Positions 1,138 through 16,107 of a stretch of 64,000 bases of DNA are shown piece after piece. The stretch's first letter is position 1. Every line of letters starts with the position of its first letter. Origin of the DNA: Oscillospiraceae bacterium (GTDB lineage Bacteria; Bacillota; Clostridia; Oscillospirales; Oscillospiraceae); assembly GCA_017458335.1 (NCBI GenBank), contig JAFTFT010000021.1, positions 1 through 64,000 of the forward strand, given 5' to 3'. The position numbers and the translations under genes are program-made. The notes below the pieces were generated by a model. It was not told the DNA's origin and ran no database searches. It was given only the letters and a program-made list of their open reading frames with translations.

Positions 1138-2037
1138 TCAGACATCATATGTTTTGTCAATGGCTTTCAGCTCATTAAAGGTATCGATCTCTATAATGTC
1201 TGATTCAAGGCATTCTCTGACTTCTACTGCGTAATGTTCTTTCCGGTATACAAGAGGAACCTGTTCCCAGTACCGCTCCTTTCCGCCGGGAGACTGGTAC
1301 ACATCCTGAATATCCTGGGAAAGCTTGTGCCCGTCGGCTTCGTTCCAGTAGGAGATGCCGACCATCTGCCAGATGTCGTCTCCTTCTCCGCCGACTTTCT
1401 CTTCGACGATGACGCGGTCCTTGACCTTGAAGCACCAGTCGTCGGAGCGCTCTTTTTTGATTCCGAGGAAGTCGGAGGTATAGTGGTACTTCCGGATGAT
1501 GGACGGATTGTAGAGCAGCAGATCTGCTTCAAACACATAGGCGTTGGAGAGCATGTAACGGGCGACCAGAGAGGAACTGATGTTGTTGGCTTCGTTGTAG
1601 ACCGGGTTTTCCAGAAACTTGATCATGGGATATTTATAGAGCAGCTGATCAAAGAGCTCTCCGAGATAGCCCCGGACGATATAGATCTCATTGATTTCCG
1701 CAGCCAGGCACGCTTCAATCAGGCGGTCGATAATCCGGACGCCATGTACTCTGACCAGCGGTTTCGGCGTGTTGAACGTGATCGGCACAAGACGTGTCCC
1801 GAAGCCGGCGGCAATAAAGATCGCCCGTTTTGCCCGATACGGTTCCAGCGCGCTGATTCCCTCTCCGGTAATCGCGCCGTCACGGACATATCTGGCTTCC
1901 GATAATTCCTTCATGACCCGGTTCACAGTGCCGAGACTGTATCCTGTGAGCTTTTCCAGATCGCGCTGGGTCAATGCGGCCTCGGTTGTCGCCAGCTTTT
2001 CCAAAAGATCAAATTGTTTTCTTGTGAGATTTTCCAT
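1138..2037 (-). CDS. Winged-helix plus LicC-like nucleotidyltransferase fusion
   Basis: A 299-residue two-domain protein. Residues about 5-62 form a MarR/winged-helix-like DNA-binding module (LTQRDLEKLTGYSLGTVNRV). From about residue 70 to the end is a sugar-phosphate nucleotidyltransferase fold with the signature AAGFGTRLVPITFNTPKPL, resembling CTP:phosphocholine cytidylyltransferase LicC. The family activates phosphocholine or a similar phospho-alcohol as a CDP conjugate for attachment to cell-surface polymers. It is the last gene of a minus-strand cassette, 48 nt after the YidC-sulfatase fusion, with GGAAGG as ribosome site. No choline kinase or LicD transferase is in the window, so the substrate is open. 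The fused DNA-binding domain might give feedback regulation; that is inference. Confidence 0.85.
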   Translation of the reverse strand: MENLTRKQFDLLEKLATTEAALTQRDLEKLTGYSLGTVNRVMKELSEARYVRDGAITGEGISALEPYRAKRAIFIAAGFGTRLVPITFNTPKPLVRVHGVRIIDRLIEACLAAEINEIYIVRGYLGELFDQLLYKYPMIKFLENPVYNEANNISSSLVARYMLSNAYVFEADLLLYNPSIIRKYHYTSDFLGIKKERSDDWCFKVKDRVIVEEKVGGEGDDIWQMVGISYWNEADGHKLSQDIQDVYQSPGGKERYWEQVPLVYRKEHYAVEVRECLESDIIEIDTFNELKAIDKTYDV

Positions 2038-2085: not shown

Positions 2086-4896
2086 TCAGCTGAATCGGTT
2101 TTGCTCAACCGTCCAGTTGTTCAGATCAAAGATATTTGTATTTCGCAGCGTGAGCCACCGCTTCGGCGACCGGCTCTCATCCACATCTTCAAAAGAGTAC
2201 TTGTTGGCATCCTCTGTCGTACTCCAGTCCCGGTACAGGATATGCTGCTCGCTGTCATACTTGTGCTCATCGGTGATTGGTTTATGCAGAAACGGATTCA
2301 CAGGGACTTCGATCAACTCGTCAAAAGCCAGGAGCGGTGTGTCCGCGTTTGTCATAAAGGAGCTGTCTGTCGTGAAATCCCGGCTGCCAAAGTCCTTCAC
2401 CATCAGAAGCGGATTATATGCCAGCAGATTCAGATAGCGTTCCCCTTCATCCGCCTTGTAATAAGGGGGCGTCTCCAGAACCATATTGAAGTATTCTCCA
2501 AAATAATACCCATGGTCAGAAACAAGAATGATTCTGGTATTATCCCAAATGTCATTCTCACGGAGATAATCAAACCAGTTTCCGAGCTGTATAAACGCAG
2601 CCATCAACGCATGATAATGCGTCATGAGAAAGAGATCTTCCGTTGCCCGAAGTTCTTTGCCGGTCAGGGACAGCCTGACAGCGTGTTCTTCTTCATAAGC
2701 CGTGTTATCCACTTCGTTTTGCGGAACGTAATCCGGCGTCTGTGTCAGCATGGGCACATGCGTGATTTCATTGCTTATCATCAGAAAGGTGTTTTCCTGT
2801 GAGGCATCAAGGGCTGTGATTTCAGAGAGGTGGTTCAGGACAGCATAATTCTTCAGAAAGTCGAGATCGACGCCGCGGCTGACAAACGGGGACTCGGCCA
2901 CCTGAGGGGTGTCGATGGAAAGGCTGTTTTTGGATGACAGATAGATGCCATCGTCGTACAGGGTGTCCTGCAGGAGCAGGGGGGCTGCCTTAAAGACACT
3001 GAAGCAGAAAAAGTTCCGGTTCCAGATCGCATATTCCATCCGGAGCGTCTCCTCTTCATATCCCGTGTATCGGCCAATCGTATTATAGGTATGCATGCCG
3101 GGGTAATCATTATAGATGCTCAGATCCGGTGTCCACATGTAATTGGCAAGAGAAGGATCACATACCGTTACCTCAAACCCGTTTTCGTAGAAATTGACAG
3201 GCATGATTTTCAGGGCTTCGTTCTGTTTGTCCTTCAGCAGCACGTCGGATCGGCTGTCGATTTCTTCCGGGATGTAGTCATACCCGCCGAAGAGCGGTGG
3301 TGAGCCGACGTTTGTTCTGGCCCCATAGGACAGGGTGTTGGGGTAATATGTGAATCCGGCAAACTGTCTCTGCAGTTCCGGCCTTTCGTTCAAAACAAAA
3401 GGAACGAAAGCGTTGACAGCACGGTCCAGCATGATCACAACCACATTTTTTCCGTTTCTGCTTAGGGGAATCCGGACGCCTTCCTGCGGCTGCTGTTTGG
3501 CAAGCGCTTCAAGGGCTTTGACCTGGCGGCCTGTGTTTTGGATGTTCAGCACCGACATCGCAGCGACGGCAAGGCAGCCCGCGATGCATACCGCGCGGAC
3601 CAGATCCGGTTTCTTCTTCCAGACGAGGTAGATCAGCACTCCGGCCGCCAGCAATACGCCCGTGTTGATCAGGTAGCTGGAGGCAGAATTGAGAATCGGG
3701 AAATCATACTTCAGCAGGGGAGACAGATTGCCGTAATTCTTTCCGAAGAACATATAGTCAATCACGGCCGACCCGGACGCAATCCCAGCCGCGAGGCAGA
3801 AAGAACGTTTTCCCTGTGCGGAGGAAAGCCGGTAGAAAATACCGCACCAGAGCAGAAAGGCTCCGGCGGCAAGAAGAGCGGAGCTCACGAGATAACGGAG
3901 GGGAGAATGAAAGTCCGTTATCTCCGCAAATTCTCCCGGCGATTCGCGGATGACGGCAGAAGGAATCAGAACGCCCAGAAGAACAGTCAGAAAGATGCAG
4001 CATGCGAAGAAAACCGTATTGACGATCTTCGGATCCGGAGTGTTTTCCTGCCGTATGCCTGCCGGCTTCCGGAAACCGGACAGGAACGGAAGCTGCATCA
4101 GACCGGCAATCAAAGCAATCAGGATCCGCTCGCGGAAGCTCTCCGGCGGATCCATCAGGCAAAAGCGGACAAACACGGCGATACCTGCCAGAGAACAGAG
4201 GCCGCCCAGGTTTTTCTTCGGATGCGGGATCTTATAAAAGATATTCTTTACCAGAGAAAACAGATTGTTGAGCGTCCAGTAAAAAACAAGTCCCGAGGGC
4301 GAACGATAGAGAAAGACAAGAAAAATCAGCGCCATCCCGTACAGCTGCACCTTGCTCTTCAACGGCATTCCCCTGGTATAGACGGCTCCGGAGATGATGT
4401 TGATCGCGGTCATCAGGATGGGCAGCAGGTTCAGGCTGATTCCACCCAGGTGAATCAGCTGATCCGGACTGCCCAGGTCAGCAATCGGACCGAAGGAGAC
4501 TCCCTGAAGGAGAGACAGGCCGGAGAGGTAACGATAAGCCGCAATGAAAAAGGGAATTTCGAGCAGCAAAGAAAGAGAGCCCTTCAGGGCATAATAAGGC
4601 TTATAATTGTTCTGGCGATAATACGTCTGCAAAATCATGAAACGCTCATCGCCCTTGAACATTTTTCTGATCTGATCAATGCCGGGCTTCATCCGCATGG
4701 ACTGAAGCCGTTCCTCTTCCTGCATGGCATCGGCTCTGCGATAGAGCGGAAGAACAAGAAAATTCATGGCCAGACTCAGAAATACAATGGCCGTGCCGGG
4801 GTGTTCCGTGATCTGACAGGCCAGGGAATAGATCACGTCAAACACCAGTTCCAGAGGCCCCAGTATCAGCTGATATAAAAGATTTCCGATTGACAT
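2086..4896 (-). CDS. YidC/Oxa1 insertase domain fused to sulfatase-like transferase
   Basis: A very large (about 936-residue) membrane protein. Residues 1-225 match YidC/Oxa1/SpoIIIJ insertases: an N-terminal ILGPLELVFD segment, a cytoplasmic hairpin (MQEEERLQSMRMKPGI) and hydrophobic core helices ending in a VFYWTLNNLFSLVKNIFY motif. Residues about 230-460 add further membrane helices. From about 484 to 900 is an extracytoplasmic sulfatase/alkaline-phosphatase fold as in LtaS, phosphoglycerol and phosphoethanolamine transferases: IMLD (Asp ~491, metal), YGART (Thr ~528, candidate nucleophile) and VSDHGYYFG (Asp ~794/His ~795, metal). The start at 4896 is preferred over 4905 because AAAGGATG then sits at proper spacing. 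It lies between a TagB-like transferase and a LicC-like enzyme, so a role in making or decorating a surface phosphopolymer is inferred. Confidence 0.85.
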   Translation of the reverse strand: MSIGNLLYQLILGPLELVFDVIYSLACQITEHPGTAIVFLSLAMNFLVLPLYRRADAMQEEERLQSMRMKPGIDQIRKMFKGDERFMILQTYYRQNNYKPYYALKGSLSLLLEIPFFIAAYRYLSGLSLLQGVSFGPIADLGSPDQLIHLGGISLNLLPILMTAINIISGAVYTRGMPLKSKVQLYGMALIFLVFLYRSPSGLVFYWTLNNLFSLVKNIFYKIPHPKKNLGGLCSLAGIAVFVRFCLMDPPESFRERILIALIAGLMQLPFLSGFRKPAGIRQENTPDPKIVNTVFFACCIFLTVLLGVLIPSAVIRESPGEFAEITDFHSPLRYLVSSALLAAGAFLLWCGIFYRLSSAQGKRSFCLAAGIASGSAVIDYMFFGKNYGNLSPLLKYDFPILNSASSYLINTGVLLAAGVLIYLVWKKKPDLVRAVCIAGCLAVAAMSVLNIQNTGRQVKALEALAKQQPQEGVRIPLSRNGKNVVVIMLDRAVNAFVPFVLNERPELQRQFAGFTYYPNTLSYGARTNVGSPPLFGGYDYIPEEIDSRSDVLLKDKQNEALKIMPVNFYENGFEVTVCDPSLANYMWTPDLSIYNDYPGMHTYNTIGRYTGYEEETLRMEYAIWNRNFFCFSVFKAAPLLLQDTLYDDGIYLSSKNSLSIDTPQVAESPFVSRGVDLDFLKNYAVLNHLSEITALDASQENTFLMISNEITHVPMLTQTPDYVPQNEVDNTAYEEEHAVRLSLTGKELRATEDLFLMTHYHALMAAFIQLGNWFDYLRENDIWDNTRIILVSDHGYYFGEYFNMVLETPPYYKADEGERYLNLLAYNPLLMVKDFGSRDFTTDSSFMTNADTPLLAFDELIEVPVNPFLHKPITDEHKYDSEQHILYRDWSTTEDANKYSFEDVDESRSPKRWLTLRNTNIFDLNNWTVEQNRFS

Positions 4897-4919
4897 CTGT
4901 GTCATCCTTTATCCGATTG

Positions 4920-6167
4920 TTATGCTGCCCGGTGACCGGCTTCTGAAGAAAGCAGTTCGCCTCTTTTTTCTACCAGGTAATCCGCGACGGCTTCGACCGA
5001 GTGACCGATATTTGCCCAGGTTTCCGCCCTGGCCCGATCGCGTCCCGCCTTGAAACGGTTTTCGGAGAGGCATTGCTGAATCAGAATTTTGATATCTTTC
5101 ATGTTCTCTTCGGTCAGCTGCAGACCCAGCTGATCCAGAATGGAAAACGTCCAGAGGCCCTCCTCCAGCCACCAGGCATCATACATGCCGGCGTCGAAGG
5201 AAGTGTCCGCGTAGATAACCGGCTTGTCGAACACCAGGGTGTAGTCGAAAATGACCCCCGAGAAATCAGAAATCAGAATATCAGAGCGATGCAGCACGTC
5301 AAAATTGTCAACGCTTCGATCCCACTGCAGCTGCTCGCTTTCCGGGTATTTTTTCATCAGGGAGGACAGCATGCCGCTTTCCGAGACAAACGACTGCGGA
5401 TGCGGGCGGATGATCACGTGAAAACCCGTCTCCAGAAGCCGGTCAATGATTTTCGAGCCGTATTTGCTCAAAATTCCGCTTGGCCCCCAGGACGGAGCAA
5501 GAAGAACGGTGATTTCGTGCTCCGGCACGGGGTCAGCGCGCAGCAGCCGTTCCCGCAGGGCGTCCGTATGCGGCGATCCGGTGAGCCGGAGTTCCTTCTC
5601 AGGAAGATGACGCAGTGCTTCCAGCTCACGGATTTCCCGAATCTGGTATTCTCCGCTGAGCAGCAGGGCATCGTAGTAGTCAATGCCGAACATCCGGTAC
5701 AGGGTCACGTCATTTGCAGCATGAAAAACATGGGTATACCATTTGACATCCCGAGACCGTTTCCACTGATAGACGTCCAGCCCCGGCGTGCTGGACAGAA
5801 CCACATCCGCTTTCAGCATGTTCATCCGGGCAAACGTCTTGTTTCCGTCCCCTGCATATTCTGCCCTGATATTGCGATATTTCTCGTTCAGCAGCGGATC
5901 GTCCGGCTCTGCCGTCAGATAGAGAACCTGCTCACCACGCTTCTCCATTTCATCGCACAGGGGTTTGAAGATGTTCCAGTATCGTTTGCTGTCCGTGAAA
6001 AAAACAAAGGGAATCGCCGCATCGTCGCTGCGCCTGACGTTTCCTCCGGAGAGCAGAAACTTCAGTTTTACCAAAACGCCGCGGAAGGCATAAATGGCAG
6101 CGCTGAGCACACCGATCAGTATCGTGAACAACATGCTCCCTGTACCGGGATCAATATAGAGGAACAT
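4920..6167 (-). CDS. CDP-glycerol glycerophosphotransferase-like protein (TagB/TagF family)
   Basis: A 415-residue membrane-associated transferase. The N-terminus (FLYIDPGTGSMLFTILIG) gives one membrane helix; the rest is the GT-B-like fold of CDP-glycerol:poly(glycerophosphate) glycerophosphotransferases, with LLAPSWGP, the histidine motif IIRPHPQS and DILISDFSGVIFDY near residues 225, 260 and 300. The family adds glycerol-phosphate units (or related polyol phosphates) to wall teichoic acid-type polymers at the inner membrane face. It is the first gene of the minus-strand cassette, preceded by AAGGAG and an extended -10 promoter, and lies 23 nt upstream of the YidC-sulfatase fusion. Donor specificity cannot be read from sequence. 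Confidence 0.88.
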   Translation of the reverse strand: MFLYIDPGTGSMLFTILIGVLSAAIYAFRGVLVKLKFLLSGGNVRRSDDAAIPFVFFTDSKRYWNIFKPLCDEMEKRGEQVLYLTAEPDDPLLNEKYRNIRAEYAGDGNKTFARMNMLKADVVLSSTPGLDVYQWKRSRDVKWYTHVFHAANDVTLYRMFGIDYYDALLLSGEYQIREIRELEALRHLPEKELRLTGSPHTDALRERLLRADPVPEHEITVLLAPSWGPSGILSKYGSKIIDRLLETGFHVIIRPHPQSFVSESGMLSSLMKKYPESEQLQWDRSVDNFDVLHRSDILISDFSGVIFDYTLVFDKPVIYADTSFDAGMYDAWWLEEGLWTFSILDQLGLQLTEENMKDIKILIQQCLSENRFKAGRDRARAETWANIGHSVEAVADYLVEKRGELLSSEAGHRAA

Positions 6168-6344: not shown

Positions 6345-7121
6345 TCAGGCAGGGATGATTTCCAGCGTAAGCACCGTGTCGCCCGTGACGTTCATGAGCA
6401 GGACGCTGCCATCTGCGTCATTCCAGACCAGTTCACCGGAAGTGGTCTCGGCATTCGCGATGTGCCAGCCTTCTTTCGGCGTGATGCGGCAGACGCTGTC
6501 CTCGCTGATGATCATGCTTTCGGCACCGGGCTCATTGACCACGCCCTCAAGCGTGACGTAGGGCTCATAGTATCCGGCGAGCTTCAGCTCATAGTAGCCG
6601 TAGATCCGGCTCTCCTGAGAATCGTCCTCGGGAAGAACGATGATATCCGCGCCTGCATTGTAGACGGTGCCGGCATGGTTAAAGACCGTCCCGGCTCTGG
6701 CATAGACCTTGCCGCCGTAGTTGTACACCGTACCGCCGTTGCAGAAGACGGTTCCGCCCATATTGGTGACGGTGGCGCCGGTACTGTAGACGGTTCCGCC
6801 GTCATTTCGGACAGCCATCCCCTCATAAGCGTAGATCGTGCTTCCCGATGAGACAAGCACGGGATCGGAGTCGGGTCTGGGAAGAGAAGTTTCCGATGGG
6901 ACGACGATTTCGGGAAAGGCGGTGGAATCGGGCTGAATCTGCTCCGCGAGCGCCGCGGCGTCCTCCGCACTTCCGGACATGGCGGATGGAGGGAGCGGAG
7001 CGCCTTCCGCGACAGGAACGGAATCCACATGCGGTTCCGTCTTCAGGGCGAGCGTCATCGCGGGCAGCAGGCAGAGCAGCAGAATCACCAACAGGACAAG
7101 AATCAAAGTTCTGTTTTTCAT
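6345..7121 (-). CDS. Exported protein with tandem 7-residue G-G-T-V-Y repeats
   Basis: A 258-residue protein of unknown function. The N-terminus (MKNRTLILVLLVILLLCLLP) is a signal peptide or membrane anchor, followed by a Pro/Ser/Glu-rich linker to about residue 90. Residues about 93-163 are a regular array of roughly ten heptads with the pattern Gly/Ala-Gly/Ala-Thr-Val-Tyr/Phe-x-x (GGTVYST, GATVTNM, GGTVFCN, GGTVYNY, GGKVYAR, AGTVFNH, AGTVYNA). The C-terminal ~90 residues look like a small beta domain. The repeat suggests a narrow beta-solenoid or stacked strand structure on the cell surface. The start has AAAGGAGG upstream. It is divergent from an LRR-type lipoprotein. I do not recognise a named family. 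Confidence 0.8.
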   Translation of the reverse strand: MKNRTLILVLLVILLLCLLPAMTLALKTEPHVDSVPVAEGAPLPPSAMSGSAEDAAALAEQIQPDSTAFPEIVVPSETSLPRPDSDPVLVSSGSTIYAYEGMAVRNDGGTVYSTGATVTNMGGTVFCNGGTVYNYGGKVYARAGTVFNHAGTVYNAGADIIVLPEDDSQESRIYGYYELKLAGYYEPYVTLEGVVNEPGAESMIISEDSVCRITPKEGWHIANAETTSGELVWNDADGSVLLMNVTGDTVLTLEIIPA

Positions 7122-8787: not shown

Positions 8788-9771
8788 ATGGAAGAGAAGA
8801 TAACTTGCAAGGTCTCGGTCCTCTGCGCCACATACAACCATGAGGAGTATCTGCGCCAGACCCTGGACAGTTTCCTGAATCAGAAGACGGATTTTCCCTT
8901 CGAGGTGCTGGTGAACGACGACGCGTCCACCGACAGCACCGGGGACATCATCCGGGAATACGCGGCGAAATACCCAGAGGTGATTCGGCCCTTCTATCAA
9001 AAGGAGAACCTCTATTCTCGGCGCATCAACCTCTATGACGTGGTGTTCTTCCCGGCCTGCCGGGGCGAGTATATCGCCGTATGCGAGGGGGACGATTACT
9101 GGAACGACCCGGAGAAGCTGCAGCTTCAGGTGGACTGGCTGGACGCCCATCCGGAGTACTCCGCCTGCGTGCACAACAGCATCGGACGCTTTTCGAATCA
9201 GCCGGACAAGGTCCTGTTTGCGCAGGACGGAGACCGGGACATCCCCTTTGAGCAGGTGGTGCAGGGCATGTCCCATGCCTACCACACGAGTTCGATCCTC
9301 GCCCGGCGCGAGTTTATCCTGAATCCGCCGGATTACCGCGACGTGGCCTATCACCAGGGCTACTTCACCGACTATGCCATCGGCGTACGACTCGGCCTCT
9401 CGGGGAAGGTGCGCTTTCTGGACCGCTGCATGTCGGTTTACCGCATCGGCAGCAACCCCTCGGCCTGGAGCAGGGGTGTCGGACAGGAGTATCACAAGCT
9501 CAAGCGCTTTGTCAGCGGCGAGATTGCCATGCTGAAGACCGTGAAGCAACATCCGTTGACACCGGAGCAGGAAGCGGCCATCGATCAGGTCCTGCTGGAG
9601 CGGGAGTATGAGCTGCTCTACATCGAAGGGCGCGTGGACGAGATGGTCAAGCCGCCCTATGACAAAATTCATAAAAGCATGGGAAAGGGCCGCATCATCT
9701 CCACCGAGCTCAAGCGCAGGCTGCCCCATCTGCACCGGCTCTATCGGAAACACCGCGGATATGAGGACTGA
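8788..9771 (+). CDS. Glycosyltransferase family 2
   Basis: A 327-residue GT-A fold glycosyltransferase. It starts with the classic SVLCATYNHEEYLRQTLDSFLNQ segment and contains NDDASTDST (nucleotide-sugar binding) and EGDDYW (metal-binding DD) near residues 50 and 105. Such enzymes add one sugar to a lipid-linked glycan on the cytoplasmic face. It is the first gene of an operon of six overlapping or closely spaced genes; GGAG lies 7 nt before the ATG. Donor and acceptor are unknown. Confidence 0.92.
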   Translation: MEEKITCKVSVLCATYNHEEYLRQTLDSFLNQKTDFPFEVLVNDDASTDSTGDIIREYAAKYPEVIRPFYQKENLYSRRINLYDVVFFPACRGEYIAVCEGDDYWNDPEKLQLQVDWLDAHPEYSACVHNSIGRFSNQPDKVLFAQDGDRDIPFEQVVQGMSHAYHTSSILARREFILNPPDYRDVAYHQGYFTDYAIGVRLGLSGKVRFLDRCMSVYRIGSNPSAWSRGVGQEYHKLKRFVSGEIAMLKTVKQHPLTPEQEAAIDQVLLEREYELLYIEGRVDEMVKPPYDKIHKSMGKGRIISTELKRRLPHLHRLYRKHRGYED

Positions 9772-9779
9772 TCAGAAGG

Positions 9780-11237
9780 ATGGGTAACGGAAGCAAAGTT
9801 GCGAGCAACTTCCTCTGGCGTTTTTTTGAGCGTTTCGGCGCGCAGCTGCTCAACATCGTGGTGGGCATCATTCTCGCGCGCAAGCTGGGCCCCGGCCCCT
9901 CCGGCCAGATCGCCGTGGTGCTGGCGGTCATCAATATCCTGAAGGTGTTTGCCGACAGCGGCATGGCGAACGCCCTGATCCAGAAAAAGGATCCGGACGA
10001 TCTGGACTTCTCGTCGGTGTTTTTCTTCAACCTCGGCTTCAGCCTGCTGCTGTATCTGGGGCTGTTTCTCGCGGCACCGCGGATCGCGGTGTTCTATCAG
10101 GAGGAGAGCTATGTGGCGATCCTCCGGGTGCTGGGCCTGCTTGTGGTGATCTCCGGCCTCTACAACGTGCAGCTGGCCTACGTGTCCAAGACCATGCAGT
10201 TCAAGCGCTTTTTCTTCGCGACCCTGGGAGGGACGCTGTTCTCCGGCGCGCTGAGCATCGCGATGGTCTATCTCGGCTTCGGCATCTGGTCCCTGGTGGC
10301 GCTGCAGCTGAGCAACTTTGCCGTCAACACCCTGATCCTCTGGTTCACGGTCAGCTGGCGGCCGAAAAAAATGTTCTCCGCCGAGCGCCTGAAGGGCCTG
10401 CTCTCCTACGGCTGGAAACTGCTGGCGGCCTCTTTCCTCGACACGCTGTATCTGCAGATCTACTCTCTGGTGATCGGCAAGCGCTATCCCAAGGAAGAGC
10501 TCGGACAGTTTGACAAGGGACGCAACTGGCCGGATCAGATCACAACCAGCATCAACGCCTCTCTCGACAGCGTGCTGCTGCCGGTGCTCTCGGCGGAGCA
10601 GGACAACGTCCATACCCTGCGGGAGATGACACGCCGCGCCATCAAGACCAGCTCTTTTGTGATGATGCCGATGATGGCGGGGCTTGCGGCCTGCGCCACA
10701 CCGCTGGTCCGGCTGCTGCTGAAGGAGCAGTGGCTGCCCTGCGTGCCGTTTATGCAGATTTTCTGCGCGATCTACGCGTTTTATCCCCTGCACACGGCAA
10801 ACCTCAACGCAATCAAGGCCATGGGGCGGAGCGATATCTTCCTGAAACTGGAAGTGATCAAGAAAATCGCGGAGACCAGCGTGCTGCTCTATACCCTGCG
10901 CTACGGCGTGCTGGCCATGGCACTGGGACAGCTGTTCTGCGATATCTTGGCGCAGCTCATTAACGCCTGGCCGAACAAGAGACTGCTGGGCTATCCGTAC
11001 TGGACCCAGCTGAAGGACCTGTTGCCCTGCCTGCTGCTGTCGCTGGTGATGGCGGGCTGTGTGGCCGCGGTGCAGCTGCTGGGGCTGCATGATCTGGTGA
11101 CCCTGCTGATCCAGGTCCCGCTGGGCATGCTGGTCTATATCCTGGGCGCAAGGCTTCTGAAGCTGGACAGCTTCGACTATATCCTCAACATGGCAAAAAC
11201 CATTCTGCAGAAAAGAAGGGCGGGAGAAAACCGATGA
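9780..11237 (+). CDS. Lipid-linked oligosaccharide flippase (Wzx/MOP family)
   Basis: A 485-residue integral membrane protein with about 12-14 hydrophobic helices. It belongs to the polysaccharide transporter branch of the MOP superfamily (WzxC-like): the N-terminal segment FLWRFFERFGAQLLNIVVGIILARKLGP and the IQKKDPDDLDFSSVF segment are typical. The family moves undecaprenyl-linked glycan units across the membrane. It follows the GT2 gene by 8 nt and overlaps the ATP-grasp gene by 4 nt (ATGA), so the genes are translationally coupled. Confidence 0.92.
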   Translation: MGNGSKVASNFLWRFFERFGAQLLNIVVGIILARKLGPGPSGQIAVVLAVINILKVFADSGMANALIQKKDPDDLDFSSVFFFNLGFSLLLYLGLFLAAPRIAVFYQEESYVAILRVLGLLVVISGLYNVQLAYVSKTMQFKRFFFATLGGTLFSGALSIAMVYLGFGIWSLVALQLSNFAVNTLILWFTVSWRPKKMFSAERLKGLLSYGWKLLAASFLDTLYLQIYSLVIGKRYPKEELGQFDKGRNWPDQITTSINASLDSVLLPVLSAEQDNVHTLREMTRRAIKTSSFVMMPMMAGLAACATPLVRLLLKEQWLPCVPFMQIFCAIYAFYPLHTANLNAIKAMGRSDIFLKLEVIKKIAETSVLLYTLRYGVLAMALGQLFCDILAQLINAWPNKRLLGYPYWTQLKDLLPCLLLSLVMAGCVAAVQLLGLHDLVTLLIQVPLGMLVYILGARLLKLDSFDYILNMAKTILQKRRAGENR

Positions 11238-12448
11238 AAAAACTGCTGCTGCTCGGCGGCTCACGCTATCTGGTCCCGGTGATCCGGGAGGCAAAGGCGC
11301 TGGGCTGTCATACGATCACCTGCGACTATCTCCCGGACAACTTCGCGCATAAGCTCTCGGATGAGTACCACAACGTGAGCATCGTCGACAGGGAAGCGAC
11401 CCTGAAGCTGGCGCAGGAGCTGAAGGTGGACGGCGTAATGTCCTTCGCCTGCGACCCCGGCGTCATCACGGCGGCCTATGTGGCGGACCGGATGGGCCTG
11501 CCGAATGTCGGCCCGTACGAATCGGTGGCGATTCTGCAGGACAAGGGGCGCTTTCGCGCCTTTCTGCGGGAGCACGGCTTCCGGGTGCCAAACTGCCGGA
11601 GCTTTTCCAGCCTCGAAGACGCCCTGAGAATGGCGGAGCAGCTCAGATATCCCCTGATTGTCAAACCCGTGGACAACGCGGGCAGCAAGGGCGTCGGCCG
11701 GGTGGACAGCCCGGCGGAGCTGGAGGCGGCGATCCGGTATGCGCTGAAGTTTACCCGCTGCGGAAGGTTCATCCTGGAAGACTTTATCCAGCAGCAGGGG
11801 TATTCCTCGGATACCGACTGCTTCTCGGTGGACGGGGAACTGAAGTTTGTCTCCTTTGATAATCAGTATTTTGACCGCAAAGCCGACAACCCTTACGCGC
11901 CGGTGGGCTATACCTGGCCGTCCACGATCCCCGAAGCGCAGCAGCGGGAGCTCCGTTCGGAGCTGCAGCGGCTGCTGAGCCTGCTGCATATGGGAACTTC
12001 GCTCTATAACGTCGAAGTCCGGCTCGGGACGGACGGAAACGCCTATCTCATGGAGGTCTCCCCACGGGGCGGCGGAAACCGGCTGAGCGAGATGCTGGAA
12101 TTCACCTCCGGGACAAGGCTGGTGCACAACGCGGTTCGCGCGGCATTGGGCCTGCCGGTGGAGGAGATGCACGACCCGGTCTATCAGGGGCACTGGTCCA
12201 TCGTGATGCTGCACGCAGAGCGCAGCGGCGCGTTCCGGAAGCTCTGGATCGCGGAGGACGCGAGAGCCTCCGTGGTTGAGGAGGACCTCTGGGTAAATCC
12301 GGGAGACCCGGTGGAAGCCTTTGCCGGCGCAAACAACGCCGTGGGCTCGCTGGTGCTGAACTGGCCGAGCGAGGCGGAACGGGATGCCCGTATGTCGGAT
12401 GTCTCAAGCTGGGCGCGGATCCTGACAGAGGGGGAGCCCGATGCATAA
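11234..12448 (+). CDS. ATP-grasp domain ligase
   Basis: A 404-residue ATP-grasp enzyme. Residues 1-110 form the pre-ATP-grasp Rossmann-like domain (LLLGGSRYLVPVIREAKALG); residues about 115-310 hold the ATP-grasp core with YPLIVKPVDNAGSKGVGRV (ATP-binding lysines and glycine loop), ILEDFI and the metal-binding segment YLMEVSPRGGGNRLSEM. The family joins a carboxylate to an amine or thiol through an acylphosphate. Inside a glycan operon next to PLP enzymes it may attach an amino acid to an amino-sugar; that is inference. It overlaps both neighbours. Confidence 0.88.
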   Translation: MKKLLLLGGSRYLVPVIREAKALGCHTITCDYLPDNFAHKLSDEYHNVSIVDREATLKLAQELKVDGVMSFACDPGVITAAYVADRMGLPNVGPYESVAILQDKGRFRAFLREHGFRVPNCRSFSSLEDALRMAEQLRYPLIVKPVDNAGSKGVGRVDSPAELEAAIRYALKFTRCGRFILEDFIQQQGYSSDTDCFSVDGELKFVSFDNQYFDRKADNPYAPVGYTWPSTIPEAQQRELRSELQRLLSLLHMGTSLYNVEVRLGTDGNAYLMEVSPRGGGNRLSEMLEFTSGTRLVHNAVRAALGLPVEEMHDPVYQGHWSIVMLHAERSGAFRKLWIAEDARASVVEEDLWVNPGDPVEAFAGANNAVGSLVLNWPSEAERDARMSDVSSWARILTEGEPDA

Positions 12449-13391
12449 GGAGATCGGCGGATACCTGGAGCTGGAGCGCTTCACGGGGCCGATGCTGCAC
12501 GAAAAGGCGCTGGCGCTCTCCAGCGGCCGGGCCTGCCTCAGCTATCTGATCGAACAGCGCGGAATCCGGAAGATTGCTCTGCCGGACTTCAACTGCGACG
12601 TGGTGGAAGCGGTCTGCCGGGCTCATGAGCTTGATATCCGCTTCTATCCCGTGGGAGCGGACCTCCGGCCGAAGGCGCTGAAGACAGAAGACGACGAGTG
12701 GTTCTACCTCGTGAACTTCTACGGACAGCTGCCGGCAGATGAGCTGCAAAGCATTGCCGAACGCGTTCCCAGACTCATCGTGGATAACGCCCAGGCGTAT
12801 TTTGACCTGCCGCTGAAGGGCGTGGACACGCTCTATACCTGCCGAAAGTTCCTGGGTGTTCCGGACGGCGGCTTCGTCTATACCGACGCGCCGGAGAGAG
12901 AACTCCCGGCGGATGAGTCGCGGGAGCGGATGGACTTTGTCCTGGGCCGCTTCGAGCGTCCGGCGGGCGAATACTTTGCCGCCGCCGCGCAGAACAACGA
13001 GGCACTCTCCATGGAACCGAAACGCATGTCCGCCCTGACGGAAAACCTCCTGCACGCGGTGGACTATGAGCGGGTGAAGAGGATCCGGACGGAAAACTTT
13101 CGGAGGCTGCATGAGGGCCTCGGGGAGCGGAACCTTCTGAAAGTGCGTCTGACGGAGGGGGGTTATGCTTATCCGCTGATGCTTCCGGAGGGGCAGACGA
13201 TCCGAAAGAAGCTCATTGAACAGAAGATTTTTGTCCCCATGCTCTGGCCGAATGTGCCCGGGCAGCAGCCGGAGGATTCGGAAGCCTGCCGGCTGGCCGA
13301 ACAGATTCTTCCGCTGCCCTGTGACCAGCGATACGGTGCGGAGGAGATGGACTTTATCATCAGGGCGGTGCGGGACTGCCTGAATCCGTGA
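12441..13391 (+). CDS. DegT/DnrJ-like PLP-fold protein, divergent
   Basis: A 316-residue protein with distant similarity to DegT/DnrJ/EryC1 sugar aminotransferases but shorter than the usual 370-400. A recognisable core includes ALSSGRACLSYLI (cofactor phosphate region), LIVDNAQAYFD (the Asp that contacts the PLP ring nitrogen) and TCRKFLGVPDGGFVYT, where the Lys would be the Schiff-base residue. It overlaps the ATP-grasp gene by 8 nt and precedes a canonical DegT enzyme by 14 nt. A catalytic or a partner role is possible. Confidence 0.7.
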   Translation: MHKEIGGYLELERFTGPMLHEKALALSSGRACLSYLIEQRGIRKIALPDFNCDVVEAVCRAHELDIRFYPVGADLRPKALKTEDDEWFYLVNFYGQLPADELQSIAERVPRLIVDNAQAYFDLPLKGVDTLYTCRKFLGVPDGGFVYTDAPERELPADESRERMDFVLGRFERPAGEYFAAAAQNNEALSMEPKRMSALTENLLHAVDYERVKRIRTENFRRLHEGLGERNLLKVRLTEGGYAYPLMLPEGQTIRKKLIEQKIFVPMLWPNVPGQQPEDSEACRLAEQILPLPCDQRYGAEEMDFIIRAVRDCLNP

Positions 13392-13405
13392 AAGGAGAAT
13401 GGAAC

Positions 13406-14500
13406 ATGACAATCAATGTGACACGGTCGTCCATGCCGCCCTTTGAAGAGTATTGTGAGGAGATCCGCGAGCTGTGGGACAGCCACTGGCTCACCAACAT
13501 GGGCAGCAAGCACCAGCAGCTGGAACAGGAGCTGAAGCACTTTCTCGGCTGCGAGGAGATTGCCCTGTTTACCAACGGGCATCTGGCCCTGGAAAACGTG
13601 ATCGAGGCCTTCCGTCTTCAAGGTGAGATCATTACGACACCGTTTACCTTTGCCTCCACAACCCATGCCATCGTGCGCTGCGGCTGCACGCCGGTGTTCT
13701 GTGACATTGACCCCAGGACCTATACCATGGATCCGGAAAAGCTGGAGGCGCTGATCACCGATAAGACGGTCGCCATTCTGCCGGTTCATGTTTACGGAAA
13801 TCTCTGCGATGTGGACCGGATCGGAGAGATTGCGGCCCGGCACGGCCTGCCGGTGATCTATGACGCAGCCCACAGCTTCGGTGTGTTCCGAAACGGGGTC
13901 AGCTCGGCCTGCTTCGGCGATGCGGCGATGTTCAGCTTCCACGCGACCAAGGTCTTCAACACCGTAGAGGGCGGCGCGGTCTGCTGCCGCAGCGCGGAGA
14001 TTCAGCGCCGGCTCTGCGATCTGAAGAATTTCGGCATCCATGACGAGGAGACGGTGGCCTATGTCGGCGGCAACGCCAAGATGAACGAGTTCTGCGCTGC
14101 GATGGGGCTGTGCAATCTGCGCCATCTTCAGGAAGAGATCGAAAAGCGGCGGCTGGTGGCGCAACATTATGACGAACGCCTCGGAGGCATTCCGGGGCTG
14201 CAGCTGAATGCGCATCCGGCGGAAATTCAGCCAAACTTCGCCTACTATCCGGTGGTGTTTGACGGCTTCCGCCTGAACCGGGACGAGGTCTTCGCACGTC
14301 TCGCGGAAAACGGGATCATCCCGAGAAAGTATTTCTACCCCCTGACGAGCGCCTTTACCTGCTATGCGGGGAAGGCCGGATTCGACCCGACAAAGACGCC
14401 GGTCGCGGCGCATGTGGCGGAGCGGGTGCTGACGCTGCCGATGTACGCGGATCTTCCAATCGAAACGGTGGATCGCATCTGTGACCTGATCCTGCAATGA
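13406..14500 (+). CDS. DegT/DnrJ/EryC1/StrS-family sugar aminotransferase
   Basis: A 364-residue PLP-dependent enzyme of the family that aminates nucleotide-linked keto-sugars. Visible motifs are SNGHLALE-like FTNGHLALENVI, TTPFTFASTTHAIVRCGCTPVFCDID, VIYDAAHSFGV (PLP ring Asp) and MFSFHATKVFNTVEGGAV, in which the Lys is the Schiff-base residue. It resembles VioA/FdtB-type enzymes. The start at 13406 is preferred because AAAGGAG lies 8 nt upstream. It overlaps the next gene by ATGA. It likely makes an amino-deoxy sugar for the glycan; no sugar dehydratase is in the window. Confidence 0.92.
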   Translation: MTINVTRSSMPPFEEYCEEIRELWDSHWLTNMGSKHQQLEQELKHFLGCEEIALFTNGHLALENVIEAFRLQGEIITTPFTFASTTHAIVRCGCTPVFCDIDPRTYTMDPEKLEALITDKTVAILPVHVYGNLCDVDRIGEIAARHGLPVIYDAAHSFGVFRNGVSSACFGDAAMFSFHATKVFNTVEGGAVCCRSAEIQRRLCDLKNFGIHDEETVAYVGGNAKMNEFCAAMGLCNLRHLQEEIEKRRLVAQHYDERLGGIPGLQLNAHPAEIQPNFAYYPVVFDGFRLNRDEVFARLAENGIIPRKYFYPLTSAFTCYAGKAGFDPTKTPVAAHVAERVLTLPMYADLPIETVDRICDLILQ

Positions 14501-16107
14501 CGAGACCGATTCTCCGGAATAAGCTCTACCTCTATCTGACGGAGTTTTTCGCCGGAATGGCGGTGATGGCGGTGGAACTGGGAGCCAGCCGCCTGCTGGC
14601 GCCGTACTTTTCCTCCTCCCAGATCGTCTGGACCATCATCATCGGGACGATCATGATCGCCATGGCTCTCGGCAATCTCTACGGCGGACGCAGTGCGGAC
14701 CGGGATCCGAATCCGGACCGCCTGTACCGGCGCATTCTCATCGCCTCGATCTGGATTGCCCTGATCCCGGTGGTCGGGAAATACGTTATCCTCGCGATCT
14801 CCGCCGTGATGATCTTCTCCGTGAACGCCAACTACCTGATCTGGGCGGCGTTTGCGGCCTGCATGGTCATCTTCGTCTTCCCGCTCTTTCTGCTGGGGAC
14901 GGTGACGCCGTCGCTGGCCAAGTACAGCATGGAGAACCTGGAGGACAATGCCCGGATCGTCGGGACGCTGGGGGCGGCCAACACCGTCGGCAGCATCATC
15001 GGGACCTTTGTCCCGACCTTTGTGACGATCCCGGCGGTCGGCACGTCGATCACCTTCCTGATCTTCGCGGGGATTCTGCTGGTGCTGGGGCTGATCTATT
15101 TTATCAGCACGAAAACACGCAGCGCCGCCTCTGTGGCGGGAGTTGCGGTGTTCCTGCTCAGCTGCGCCCTGGGATACCGGTCGAACTTCGCTTTCTGGAA
15201 GGATAATCTGGTCTATGAGGGCGAATCGGTCTACAACTATCTGCAGGTGGAGGAGACCGACGACAGCGTCATCCTCTCGACGAATGTCCTCTTCGGTGTC
15301 CAGTCCATCCTCCGCAGGGACGCGTCCCTCACCGGCATGTACTATGACTATGCCCTGGCGGCGCCCATGATGGCCGGGGCGGAGGAAAAACTGGCGGAGG
15401 GTCAGGGCTTTGACCTGCTGATCCTCGGGATGGGAACCGGGACCTACGGAAGCCAGTGTACACGATACTTCCCCGGTATCCAGATCGAGGGCGTGGAGAT
15501 TGACGAGAAGATCACCCGGCTTGCGCATCGCTATTTTGAGATGCCGGAGGATCTGAATGTCTGCACCTATGACGGCCGGGCCTATCTGAACGCGGTGGAA
15601 AAGCGGTATGACGTGATCATGGTGGACGCCTACCAAGACATCACGATCCCGTTTCAGATGTCTTCCGTCGAGTTCTTCACCATGGTGCGGGAGCACCTGA
15701 AGGACGACGGCGTGCTCGTCGTCAACATGAACATGCACGGGGAGAGAGAAGGGGAAATCAACCACTACCTCTCCGACACCATCGCCGCCGTGTTTCCGGA
15801 AGTCCGGACGATCGACGTCCCGAACAGCACGAATCGGGAGCTCTTTGCCTCCTGCAATCCGGAGATGCTGGAAACAATGTCACGCAATGCGATGCTTTGC
15901 AGCGATGCCGAGCTTCGCGGCCTGATGGAGCGGATCAGGGAAAGTCTCACGCCCTGGCAGGCAGGTAACTATCTCATGACAGACGACCGGGCGCCGGTGG
16001 AGCTCCTGGGCATGAGGGTCATCGACGACCTGATCCGGGACGAGGTCTCGGGGTACAAGTGGATCTATGAGGAATACGGCATTCAGGGCATCATCGACAT
16101 GCTGTGA
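14497..16107 (+). CDS. Membrane-anchored spermidine-synthase-like protein
   Basis: A 536-residue fusion of an N-terminal membrane domain (about residues 10-210, six to seven helices; MAVELGASRLLAPYFSSSQIVWTIIIG) and a C-terminal polyamine-synthase/methyltransferase fold with LILGMGTGTYGSQ, GVEIDEKI and MVDAYQDITIPFQMSSVEFF. This is the broad fused MFS/spermidine synthase family, often annotated but rarely characterised. In the family the enzyme domain transfers an aminopropyl group from decarboxylated SAM or a related group. Being last in a glycan operon suggests a polyamine-like modification or a spare methyltransferase role; that is inference. Confidence 0.85.
   Translation: MTRPILRNKLYLYLTEFFAGMAVMAVELGASRLLAPYFSSSQIVWTIIIGTIMIAMALGNLYGGRSADRDPNPDRLYRRILIASIWIALIPVVGKYVILAISAVMIFSVNANYLIWAAFAACMVIFVFPLFLLGTVTPSLAKYSMENLEDNARIVGTLGAANTVGSIIGTFVPTFVTIPAVGTSITFLIFAGILLVLGLIYFISTKTRSAASVAGVAVFLLSCALGYRSNFAFWKDNLVYEGESVYNYLQVEETDDSVILSTNVLFGVQSILRRDASLTGMYYDYALAAPMMAGAEEKLAEGQGFDLLILGMGTGTYGSQCTRYFPGIQIEGVEIDEKITRLAHRYFEMPEDLNVCTYDGRAYLNAVEKRYDVIMVDAYQDITIPFQMSSVEFFTMVREHLKDDGVLVVNMNMHGEREGEINHYLSDTIAAVFPEVRTIDVPNSTNRELFASCNPEMLETMSRNAMLCSDAELRGLMERIRESLTPWQAGNYLMTDDRAPVELLGMRVIDDLIRDEVSGYKWIYEEYGIQGIIDML

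Follow-up and report, generated by a model that had tools for sequence, protein, structure and literature searches.

A YidC/Oxa1-type domain fused to an alkaline-phosphatase-superfamily domain: a candidate membrane module for decorating bacterial surfaces with amino-alkyl phosphonates or phosphates

Introduction

Why should a domain of a membrane protein insertase family be joined, in one chain, to a domain of the sulfatase type? The question is raised by a gene of Oscillospiraceae bacterium (GenBank assembly GCA_017458335.1, contig JAFTFT010000021.1), found in a stretch of 64,000 nucleotides that we call the window. The gene encodes a YidC/Oxa1-type domain, a second block of membrane helices and an alkaline-phosphatase-superfamily (AP, sulfatase-like) domain, and lies between genes for a TagB-like transferase and a LicC-like cytidylyltransferase. 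The union of an insertase family with probable surface-decorating enzymes suggests its re-use for carrying lipid head groups across the membrane. We lean towards the view that the fusion provides the membrane and outer components of a system for attaching small amino-alkyl phosphonates or phosphates to the cell surface. A more specific proposal seems to us evenly balanced: that this branch of the Oxa1/YidC family is a lipid-head-group translocator, not an insertase, in a machine of four modules (YIDP helix, TagB-like, YidC, AP) with two independent fusions, which decorates the surfaces of Bacillota, Treponema and Coriobacteriia with 2-aminoethylphosphonate (AEP), phosphocholine or an amino-alkyl phosphate of CobD-like origin. 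Among the open-access papers listed by our searches, none describes, by title or displayed abstract, the YidC-AP fusion or the YidC-TagB fusion discussed below.

Layout of the fusion gene and protein

The three genes follow one another on the minus strand in the order TagB-like (6167-4920), fusion (4905-2086) and HTH-LicC-like (2037-1138), with 14 bases between the end of the TagB-like gene and the start of the fusion gene. Residues of the AP domain marked as invariant below are so in all 90 rows of the family alignment and in all seven unfused relatives examined (7/7).

2086..4905, minus strand: YidC-AP fusion gene, a single uninterrupted open reading frame (ORF) of 939 aa plus stop
4201..4905, minus strand: YidC/Oxa1-type domain, aa 1-235 (PF02096, 80.1 bits)
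3475..4200, minus strand: second membrane block of about seven helices, aa 236-477 (hydropathy averaged over 90 rows)
2089..3474, minus strand: AP domain, aa 478-939 (PF00884 and Protein Data Bank (PDB) profile matches)
3424..3426, minus strand: codon of invariant Asp494, expected metal ligand
3313..3315, minus strand: codon of invariant Thr531, expected nucleophile
2758..2760, minus strand: codon of invariant His716, expected active-site His
2512..2517, minus strand: codons of invariant Asp797-His798, expected metal ligands
4920..6167, minus strand: TagB-like transferase gene, 415 aa (PF04464, 43.5 bits, cut-off 22.1)
6135..6158, minus strand: YIDPGTGS segment, aa 4-11, at the N-terminus of the TagB-like protein (Y4 to G10 invariant in 20/20 rows)
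1138..2037, minus strand: HTH-LicC-like cytidylyltransferase gene (profile matches and key-residue alignment)

The preliminary description had recognised a YidC part and a sulfatase-type part in one chain, and this stands. The Pfam family 60KD_IMP/YidC (PF02096) matches aa 37-224 with an E value of 2.4e-22 and 80.1 bits against a cut-off of 35. The Sulfatase family (PF00884) matches aa 631-811 with an E value of 2.3e-05 and 24.3 bits, 0.7 under its cut-off of 25, and it matches at E<=0.001 in 24 of 30 diverse fusion C-terminal halves. The single ORF was also described correctly, whereas the 936 residues given for it start at a later codon; counted from the first ATG the chain has 939. About seven helices lie between the two domains (aa 237-451, hydropathy averaged over 90 rows), and the AP domain would be located outside the cell. 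The Asp, Thr and Asp-His positions named earlier as catalytic are each invariant in the 90 aligned fusions, and their probable roles as metal ligands and nucleophile are assigned by motif, as is that of His716. Both neighbours are as described, a PF04464 gene upstream and an HTH-LicC-like gene downstream on the same strand. The window starts at the first base of the contig (C8), so the region beyond the LicC side is only partly visible.

The label "LtaS-like" is not established for the AP domain. Its best PDB profile matches are a phosphonate monoester hydrolase and sulfatases, mostly aligned around the shared DHG motif, and LtaS is a weak match (E 5.2e-4) behind seven of these. The NCBIfam scan of the window protein listed no LtaS or EptA model.

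Recurrence and conservation of the fusion

A search of genome contigs gave 209 pattern matches and 118 confirmed relatives, of which the best 80 were kept; these represent the 79 loci to which counts of loci refer. The main family alignment holds 90 of 104 near-full-length fusion ORFs, the other 14 being near-duplicates, contig-end pieces, ORFs with over-long starts or members from a separate genome search. Three further fusion alignments used 30 of the 90 rows, and the alignment of TagB-like proteins used 20 genes. An assembly error joining two genes had been raised as an alternative and is rejected, since the same fusion is found at 79 loci with 90 members aligned; the gene is real.

Carriers belong to Bacillota, Treponema and Coriobacteriia (Coriobacteriaceae/Eggerthellaceae). 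The fusion is uncommon in the phylum (3 of 398 genomes drawn, the window's own genome counted in), and matches below 1e-90 occur in 7 of 99 relatives, again with the own genome included and with partial matches in three (G039, G044 and G001). Plasmid records gave no match at 1e-20. A genome may carry up to about ten copies. More than one fusion ORF is present at 29/79 loci, where some second ORFs are only pieces, and two or more near-full-length fusions (ORFs >840 aa) are present at 21/79. In the window's own genome, a partial second YidC-AP-like stretch with 57% identity to the window protein and one TAG inside lies at a contig edge (G000:C26:1-369, minus strand).

The YidC domain is the most conserved section of the chain. 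In the 90-row alignment it has 3.05 bits per column and 25 of 235 columns invariant, compared with 1.82 bits and 3/242 for the helix block and 2.36 bits and 14/462 for the AP domain. The YidC domain is therefore no decaying remnant.

The TagB-like partner

A survey of the loci bears out the association with TagB-like genes. Such a gene is found somewhere in the stretch at 60/79 loci, and adjoins the fusion (within 150 nt, same strand) at 58/79, upstream at 43 and downstream at 15. Among the 50 loci having at least 1.5 kb on both sides, 40 have it within 150 nt. A TagB-like profile match at E<=1e-20 was obtained in all 31 fusion-bearing genomes chosen (the own genome and 30 others), and 27 of them have exactly one standalone gene. 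Within the 99 relatives, standalone TagB-like genes occur in five genomes, all within the seven strong-fusion genomes (hypergeometric P=2.9e-7, kinship ignored; some matches are partial). The remaining two of the seven are G041 and G001, the latter with the second architecture described below.

Fusions may be several where the TagB-like gene is single: of the 21 loci that have at least two near-full-length fusions, 19 have one TagB-like gene and two have two. A single gene for making the donor, combined with multiple outer transferases, agrees with one shared donor lipid and a variety of acceptors.

A quick tree of TagB-like proteins groups the window protein with those of L004 and L006, which have a phosphoenolpyruvate (PEP) mutase, and L005, which has a CobD-like domain (support 98, starred). 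Loci with choline genes cluster on it (3 changes versus a shuffled mean of 7.6), with 36 of 61 rows carrying no label.

A second architecture

Two genomes that also carry YidC-AP, G104 and G106, encode a chain of 719-720 aa in which a YidC domain (117-118 bits) is joined to a TagB-like domain (39-42 bits). The gene adjoins one for an unfused AP-type membrane protein, and an HTH-LicC gene lies in the same stretch. Within the order to which G104 belongs, YidC-TagB was found in 4 of 147 genomes (G104 included); with seven of the 99 relatives this makes 12 copies in 11 genomes, G061 and G189 being counted as one. Two of the twelve copies were assigned by Pfam and the rest by phmmer. Eleven of the 12 stretches contain an AP-type gene, adjacent or up to about 4 kb away, which in two of them is cut by the end of the stretch; the L184 stretch has none.

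The YIDPG-like motif of standalone TagB-like proteins is found in none of the 12 YidC-TagB chains. A separate small protein with a Y(I/L)DPS motif is encoded near all 12, on the same strand and within 1.3 kb or overlapping, a count that comes with no chance rate. Eleven of these small proteins are also similar by phmmer, and that of L157 was recognised by motif only. Head-group genes near YidC-TagB are LicC-choline kinase (L180, L181) and PEP mutase (L185); HTH-LicC is present with importer-like genes in L156 and L169 and without them in L157, and no head-group genes were recognised in the other YidC-TagB stretches. A type I signal peptidase gene lies between the AP and YidC-TagB genes at L156:8424-8924 and L157:2419-2982 (identified by Pfam in L156 only).

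In a tree of YidC domains, 30 YidC-AP rows form one clade and five YidC-TagB rows another (100/100 each). The YidC-TagB clade stands among ordinary clostridial YidCs and is split from YidC-AP by starred branches (98/94; bootstrap not fully settled). On this tree the two architectures do not have sister YidC domains, and these separate lineages imply that YidC would have been recruited twice into the pathway, tied to its opposite ends. Fused to either the AP or the TagB-like domain, YidC is thus tied to the outer or the cytosolic enzyme of one pathway. The earlier guess of a lipid-facing or flippase-like role for the YidC part is supported, and is strengthened by this second architecture.

Head-group enzymes near the fusions

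Three sets of head-group genes were counted in stretches reaching up to 8 kb from the fusion, with importer sets left outside the count. Choline kinase is present at 11/79 loci, each time with LicC-like and EamA genes; PEP mutase and/or phosphonopyruvate decarboxylase at 7/79; and a LicC-like domain fused to a CobD/HisC-like pyridoxal-phosphate domain at 6/79 (L005, L010, L024, L054, L057 and L073, of which L005 and L073 were searched individually and the other four labelled by similarity). Choline kinase was found together with another counted set in none of the 79 stretches. All these routes end in a small amine that carries phosphorus and is activated by cytidine triphosphate (CTP).

The enzymes resemble characterized ones. 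The cytidylyltransferase-transaminase PntC of L082 matches PDB entry 6pd1 with 886 bits; 6pd1 is the structure of Treponema denticola PntC, which was shown in PMC6697681 to make the cytidine monophosphate (CMP) ester of AEP. The CobD-like domain of L005 has as its best PDB match 6oux, a threonine-phosphate decarboxylase-like enzyme, which suggests phosphoethanolamine or aminopropanol phosphate as product. The LicC-CobD-like chain perhaps couples decarboxylation of phosphoserine or phosphothreonine to activation by CTP, which may be a third route to a head group. A PF01467 domain is present in the PEP mutases encoded near the fusion.

The window HTH-LicC matches pneumococcal LicC (1jyk, E 1.6e-23) and PntC (6pd1, E 2.2e-9), and its Glu170 aligns with Glu104 of T. 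denticola PntC, which is also residue 104 in L082. Among 28 aligned rows this position is Ser in all 11 choline kinase loci and in L036; Glu in all six LicC-CobD-like loci and in L041, L074, L081, L082, L023, L042 and L086; His in L044; and Cys in L076. A smaller Asp in LicC at this position is suggested in part of PMC6697681 to give choline more room. A rule based on two residues for telling LicC from PntC was rejected, as the first residue alone separates the groups and the second does not. By this position, the window enzyme is predicted to use AEP or phosphoethanolamine rather than phosphocholine.

Genes for an AEP-type importer, like PhnS2, PhnT2 and PhnU2 (binding protein, ATPase and permease), adjoin HTH-LicC in L042, L074 and L156, and PhnS2- and PhnU2-like genes do so in L169. 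For those scored with NCBIfam, the Phn models are the best matches, yet below the curated cut-offs. In the window's own genome such importer-like genes lie on another contig (L165, G000:C27:33500-43500), where an ATP-binding cassette permease like PhnU2 and HTH-LicC are joined in one chain of 856 aa (L165:4253-6820) beside PhnS2- and PhnT2-like genes; import and activation, perhaps of AEP, may there be joined in a single protein. Because of Glu170, the importer genes in the own genome, and a search of that genome (83.7% complete) that found neither PEP mutase nor choline kinase, imported AEP is our best guess for the window head group, with phosphoethanolamine second.

Proposed mechanism

The modules, the conserved catalytic residues, the gene association, the two architectures and the neighbouring enzymes can be arranged into four steps. 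First, an HTH-LicC/PntC-type enzyme would form the CMP ester of the group, which here is most likely imported AEP. Second, the TagB-like enzyme, anchored to the membrane through its YIDPGTGS helix, would move the group from CMP to a lipid at the cytosolic face; phosphocholine or phosphoethanolamine are alternative loads. Third, the head group would slide through the lipid-exposed hydrophilic groove of the YidC-type domain to the outer face. Fourth, the outer AP domain would take the group onto Thr531 and pass it to a glycan or another surface acceptor. Transferases of the EptA and LtaS type take a group onto Thr in this way before passing it to an acceptor. The several YidC-AP paralogues per TagB-like gene would be transferases with different acceptors that draw on one common donor lipid.

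We infer the TagB-like donor, the lipid intermediate, scrambling by the YidC domain and the acceptor from this arrangement, and the AP chemistry would have the side and direction given here. Membrane crossing is the step that has to connect a cytosolic transferase using a CMP ester with an AP transferase on the outside, and that could be attached to either of them; the lipid-facing hydrophilic groove of YidC would suit it. Robust scrambling of lipids by E. coli YidC in liposomes, along a path that simulations place in the insertion groove, is reported in passages of PMC10491306; lipid scrambling by YidC is also cited in part of PMC7618853.

With head-group-type enzymes as partners on both sides of the membrane, this branch makes scrambling as the main job of a YidC domain directly testable. 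The fusion is a candidate for the attachment step after CMP-AEP in phosphonate tailoring, which is left open in the relevant passages of PMC6697681, and for the corresponding attachment of phosphocholine in bacteria of the gut and rumen. Going by their family matches, such proteins risk being labelled plain "membrane protein insertase YidC", a name that would conceal the pathway.

A possible insertase function of the YidC domain

The best surviving alternative, which we nevertheless consider unlikely, is that the YidC domain moves no lipid and serves its partner enzymes as a dedicated insertase, chaperone or anchor. Insertion is the known work of the family, the domain scores above the PF02096 cut-off, and the many helices in the fused AP half need insertion. 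An ordinary YidC is however present beside the fusion in 29 of 30 fusion-bearing genomes tested, and a separate one is encoded in the window's own genome on contig C26. In the first architecture each partner has its own membrane segments, and the second joins YidC to a cytosolic-type enzyme instead. The YidC domain is also conserved above the catalytic domain, and it contains fusion-invariant residues that are rare in ordinary YidCs, among them Tyr55 (1/30) and Asn213 (3/30). The thirtieth genome, G127 (Treponema, the genome of L081), favours the insertase: its three YidC matches are all fusions, which rejects the statement that every fusion genome has an ordinary YidC and reflects either an assembly gap or a real replacement.

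The hydrophilic groove does not settle the matter. The position described as basic in YidC is Asn in 75, Thr in 8 and Ser in 7 of the 90 fusions, and never basic. In an alignment of ordinary YidCs (own genome and 29 others; L001, L109-L137), it is Lys or Arg in 17/30; the other 13 carry Tyr, Asn, Glu or Gln, with Asn in that of the own genome. The basic residue is called strictly conserved in YidC in part of PMC8920935, where the groove charge is also described as dispensable in E. coli YidC when an aromatic or hydrophilic residue occupies position 517; the Tyr found there is aligned with Trp210 of the fusion. Loss of the groove Arg as proof of an altered function is weakened by these data, and since 13 of 30 ordinary YidCs are non-basic too, the residue decides nothing about function.

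Possible polymerization or hydrolysis by the AP domain

A second alternative is that the AP domain is an LtaS-like polymerase: the TagB-like enzyme would start and the fusion extend a phosphodiester polymer on a lipid carrier flipped by YidC, with the cytidylyl-activated groups added otherwise. We regard this as improbable. The PF04464 enzymes whose function is known make teichoic acids, the PDB profile matches include LtaS, a polysaccharide-type cluster with a Wzx-like gene begins at 8788, and the PF01467 family seen in the nearby PEP mutases includes the glycerol cytidylyltransferase TagD. Against this, fusions to PF01467 are common among PEP mutases at large, according to part of PMC6697681. 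The neighbour representatives that were annotated, which cover only part of the neighbours, include none named as a maker of CDP-glycerol or CDP-ribitol. The recurrent third partner is a cytidylyltransferase with an amino-group source, and the pair also occurs in Treponema, which to our knowledge is not known for teichoic acids. As to the role in a surface phosphopolymer put forward in the preliminary description, no annotated gene indicates a glycerol- or ribitol-phosphate polymer, and the annotated neighbours point to the attachment of small CTP-activated amino-alkyl phosphates or phosphonates.

It is very improbable that the AP domain hydrolyses substrates outside the cell, as a phosphodiesterase, phosphonate hydrolase or sulfatase of a scavenging system, even with phosphonate monoester hydrolase and sulfatases as top PDB matches and AEP-type importer genes near some copies, given that the nucleophile position is Thr in 90/90 fusions and Cys or Ser in sulfatases, that those matches align mainly around the shared DHG motif, and that scavenging leaves the TagB-like partner, choline kinase and LicC unexplained.

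Evidence that weighs against the proposed decoration pathway

Several findings count against a surface-decoration role. Some concern the gene association: 21/79 loci lack a TagB-like gene within 150 nt, ten of these despite enough flanking sequence on either side, and G041 carries the fusion yet gives no TagB-like match. At 55/79 loci none of the three counted head-group sets is seen, importers being uncounted and some contigs short. Others concern the window head group, as neither PEP mutase nor choline kinase was found in the window's own, incomplete genome and its AEP-importer matches score below the NCBIfam cut-offs, and the importer loci L042 and L063 sit away from the window on the TagB-like tree. 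The TagB-like protein has no relative in the PDB by sequence search, and its donor is therefore a guess from neighbours. The AP domain reaches no LtaS or EptA subfamily match. As for YidC, scrambling was demonstrated for ordinary YidC, a branch other than that of the fusion; the basic groove residue reported as strictly conserved is missing in 90/90 fusions, though also in 13/30 ordinary YidCs; and in G127, with fusions as the only YidC matches, the fusions may serve as insertases.

Other genes in the window

A secreted-looking protein with a run of GGTVY/GGTVF-like repeats is encoded at 6345-7121 (minus strand), adjoining the TagB-like gene; it matches no Pfam family over the cut-off. The start of the polysaccharide-type cluster (8788-16107, plus strand) encodes a family 2 glycosyltransferase, the Wzx-like flippase, an ATP-grasp enzyme, a spermine-synthase-like protein and a DegT-like aminotransferase (assigned by eye). 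The cluster is a possible source of the acceptor.

Comparison with known systems

The proposed pathway resembles Lic and Pnt tailoring in that neighbouring enzymes of the LicC and PntC families activate phosphocholine or AEP with a cytidylyl group. It differs in its further partners: the neighbourhoods described in passages of PMC6697681 feature LicD-like phosphotransferases or glycosyltransferases, and the terms "YidC", "sulfatase" and "glycerophosphotransferase" do not occur in the main text of that paper.

With the TagB/TagF-like CDP-glycerol glycerophosphotransferases, the partner enzyme shares the PF04464 match, roughly twice its cut-off in the window, together with an RPHPQ motif that is invariant and an SDFSG motif that is nearly invariant in 20 aligned members. 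The window protein nevertheless scores far below the NCBIfam TarL/TarF cut-off, has the N-terminal YIDPGTGS helix, and is not accompanied, among the annotated neighbour representatives, by an enzyme that supplies a glycerol donor.

AP transferases of the LtaS/EptA type have five helices followed by an AP domain. The fusion has the same order of helices and AP domain and the same Asp, Thr, His and Asp-His positions in 90/90 members, but it has about seven helices, a YidC domain ahead of them and no match at subfamily level.

The fusion resembles YidC/Oxa1/60KD_IMP insertases in its PF02096 match and in the alignment of aa 39-221 with E. coli YidC structures. It narrowly misses the NCBI model of the insertase subfamily (TIGR03592, 81.4 versus 84.3 bits), and its YidC domains form a clade of their own, represented in the tree by 30 of 90 members. 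It further differs from these insertases in the attached AP domain and in its coexistence with an ordinary YidC in nearly all the genomes tested.

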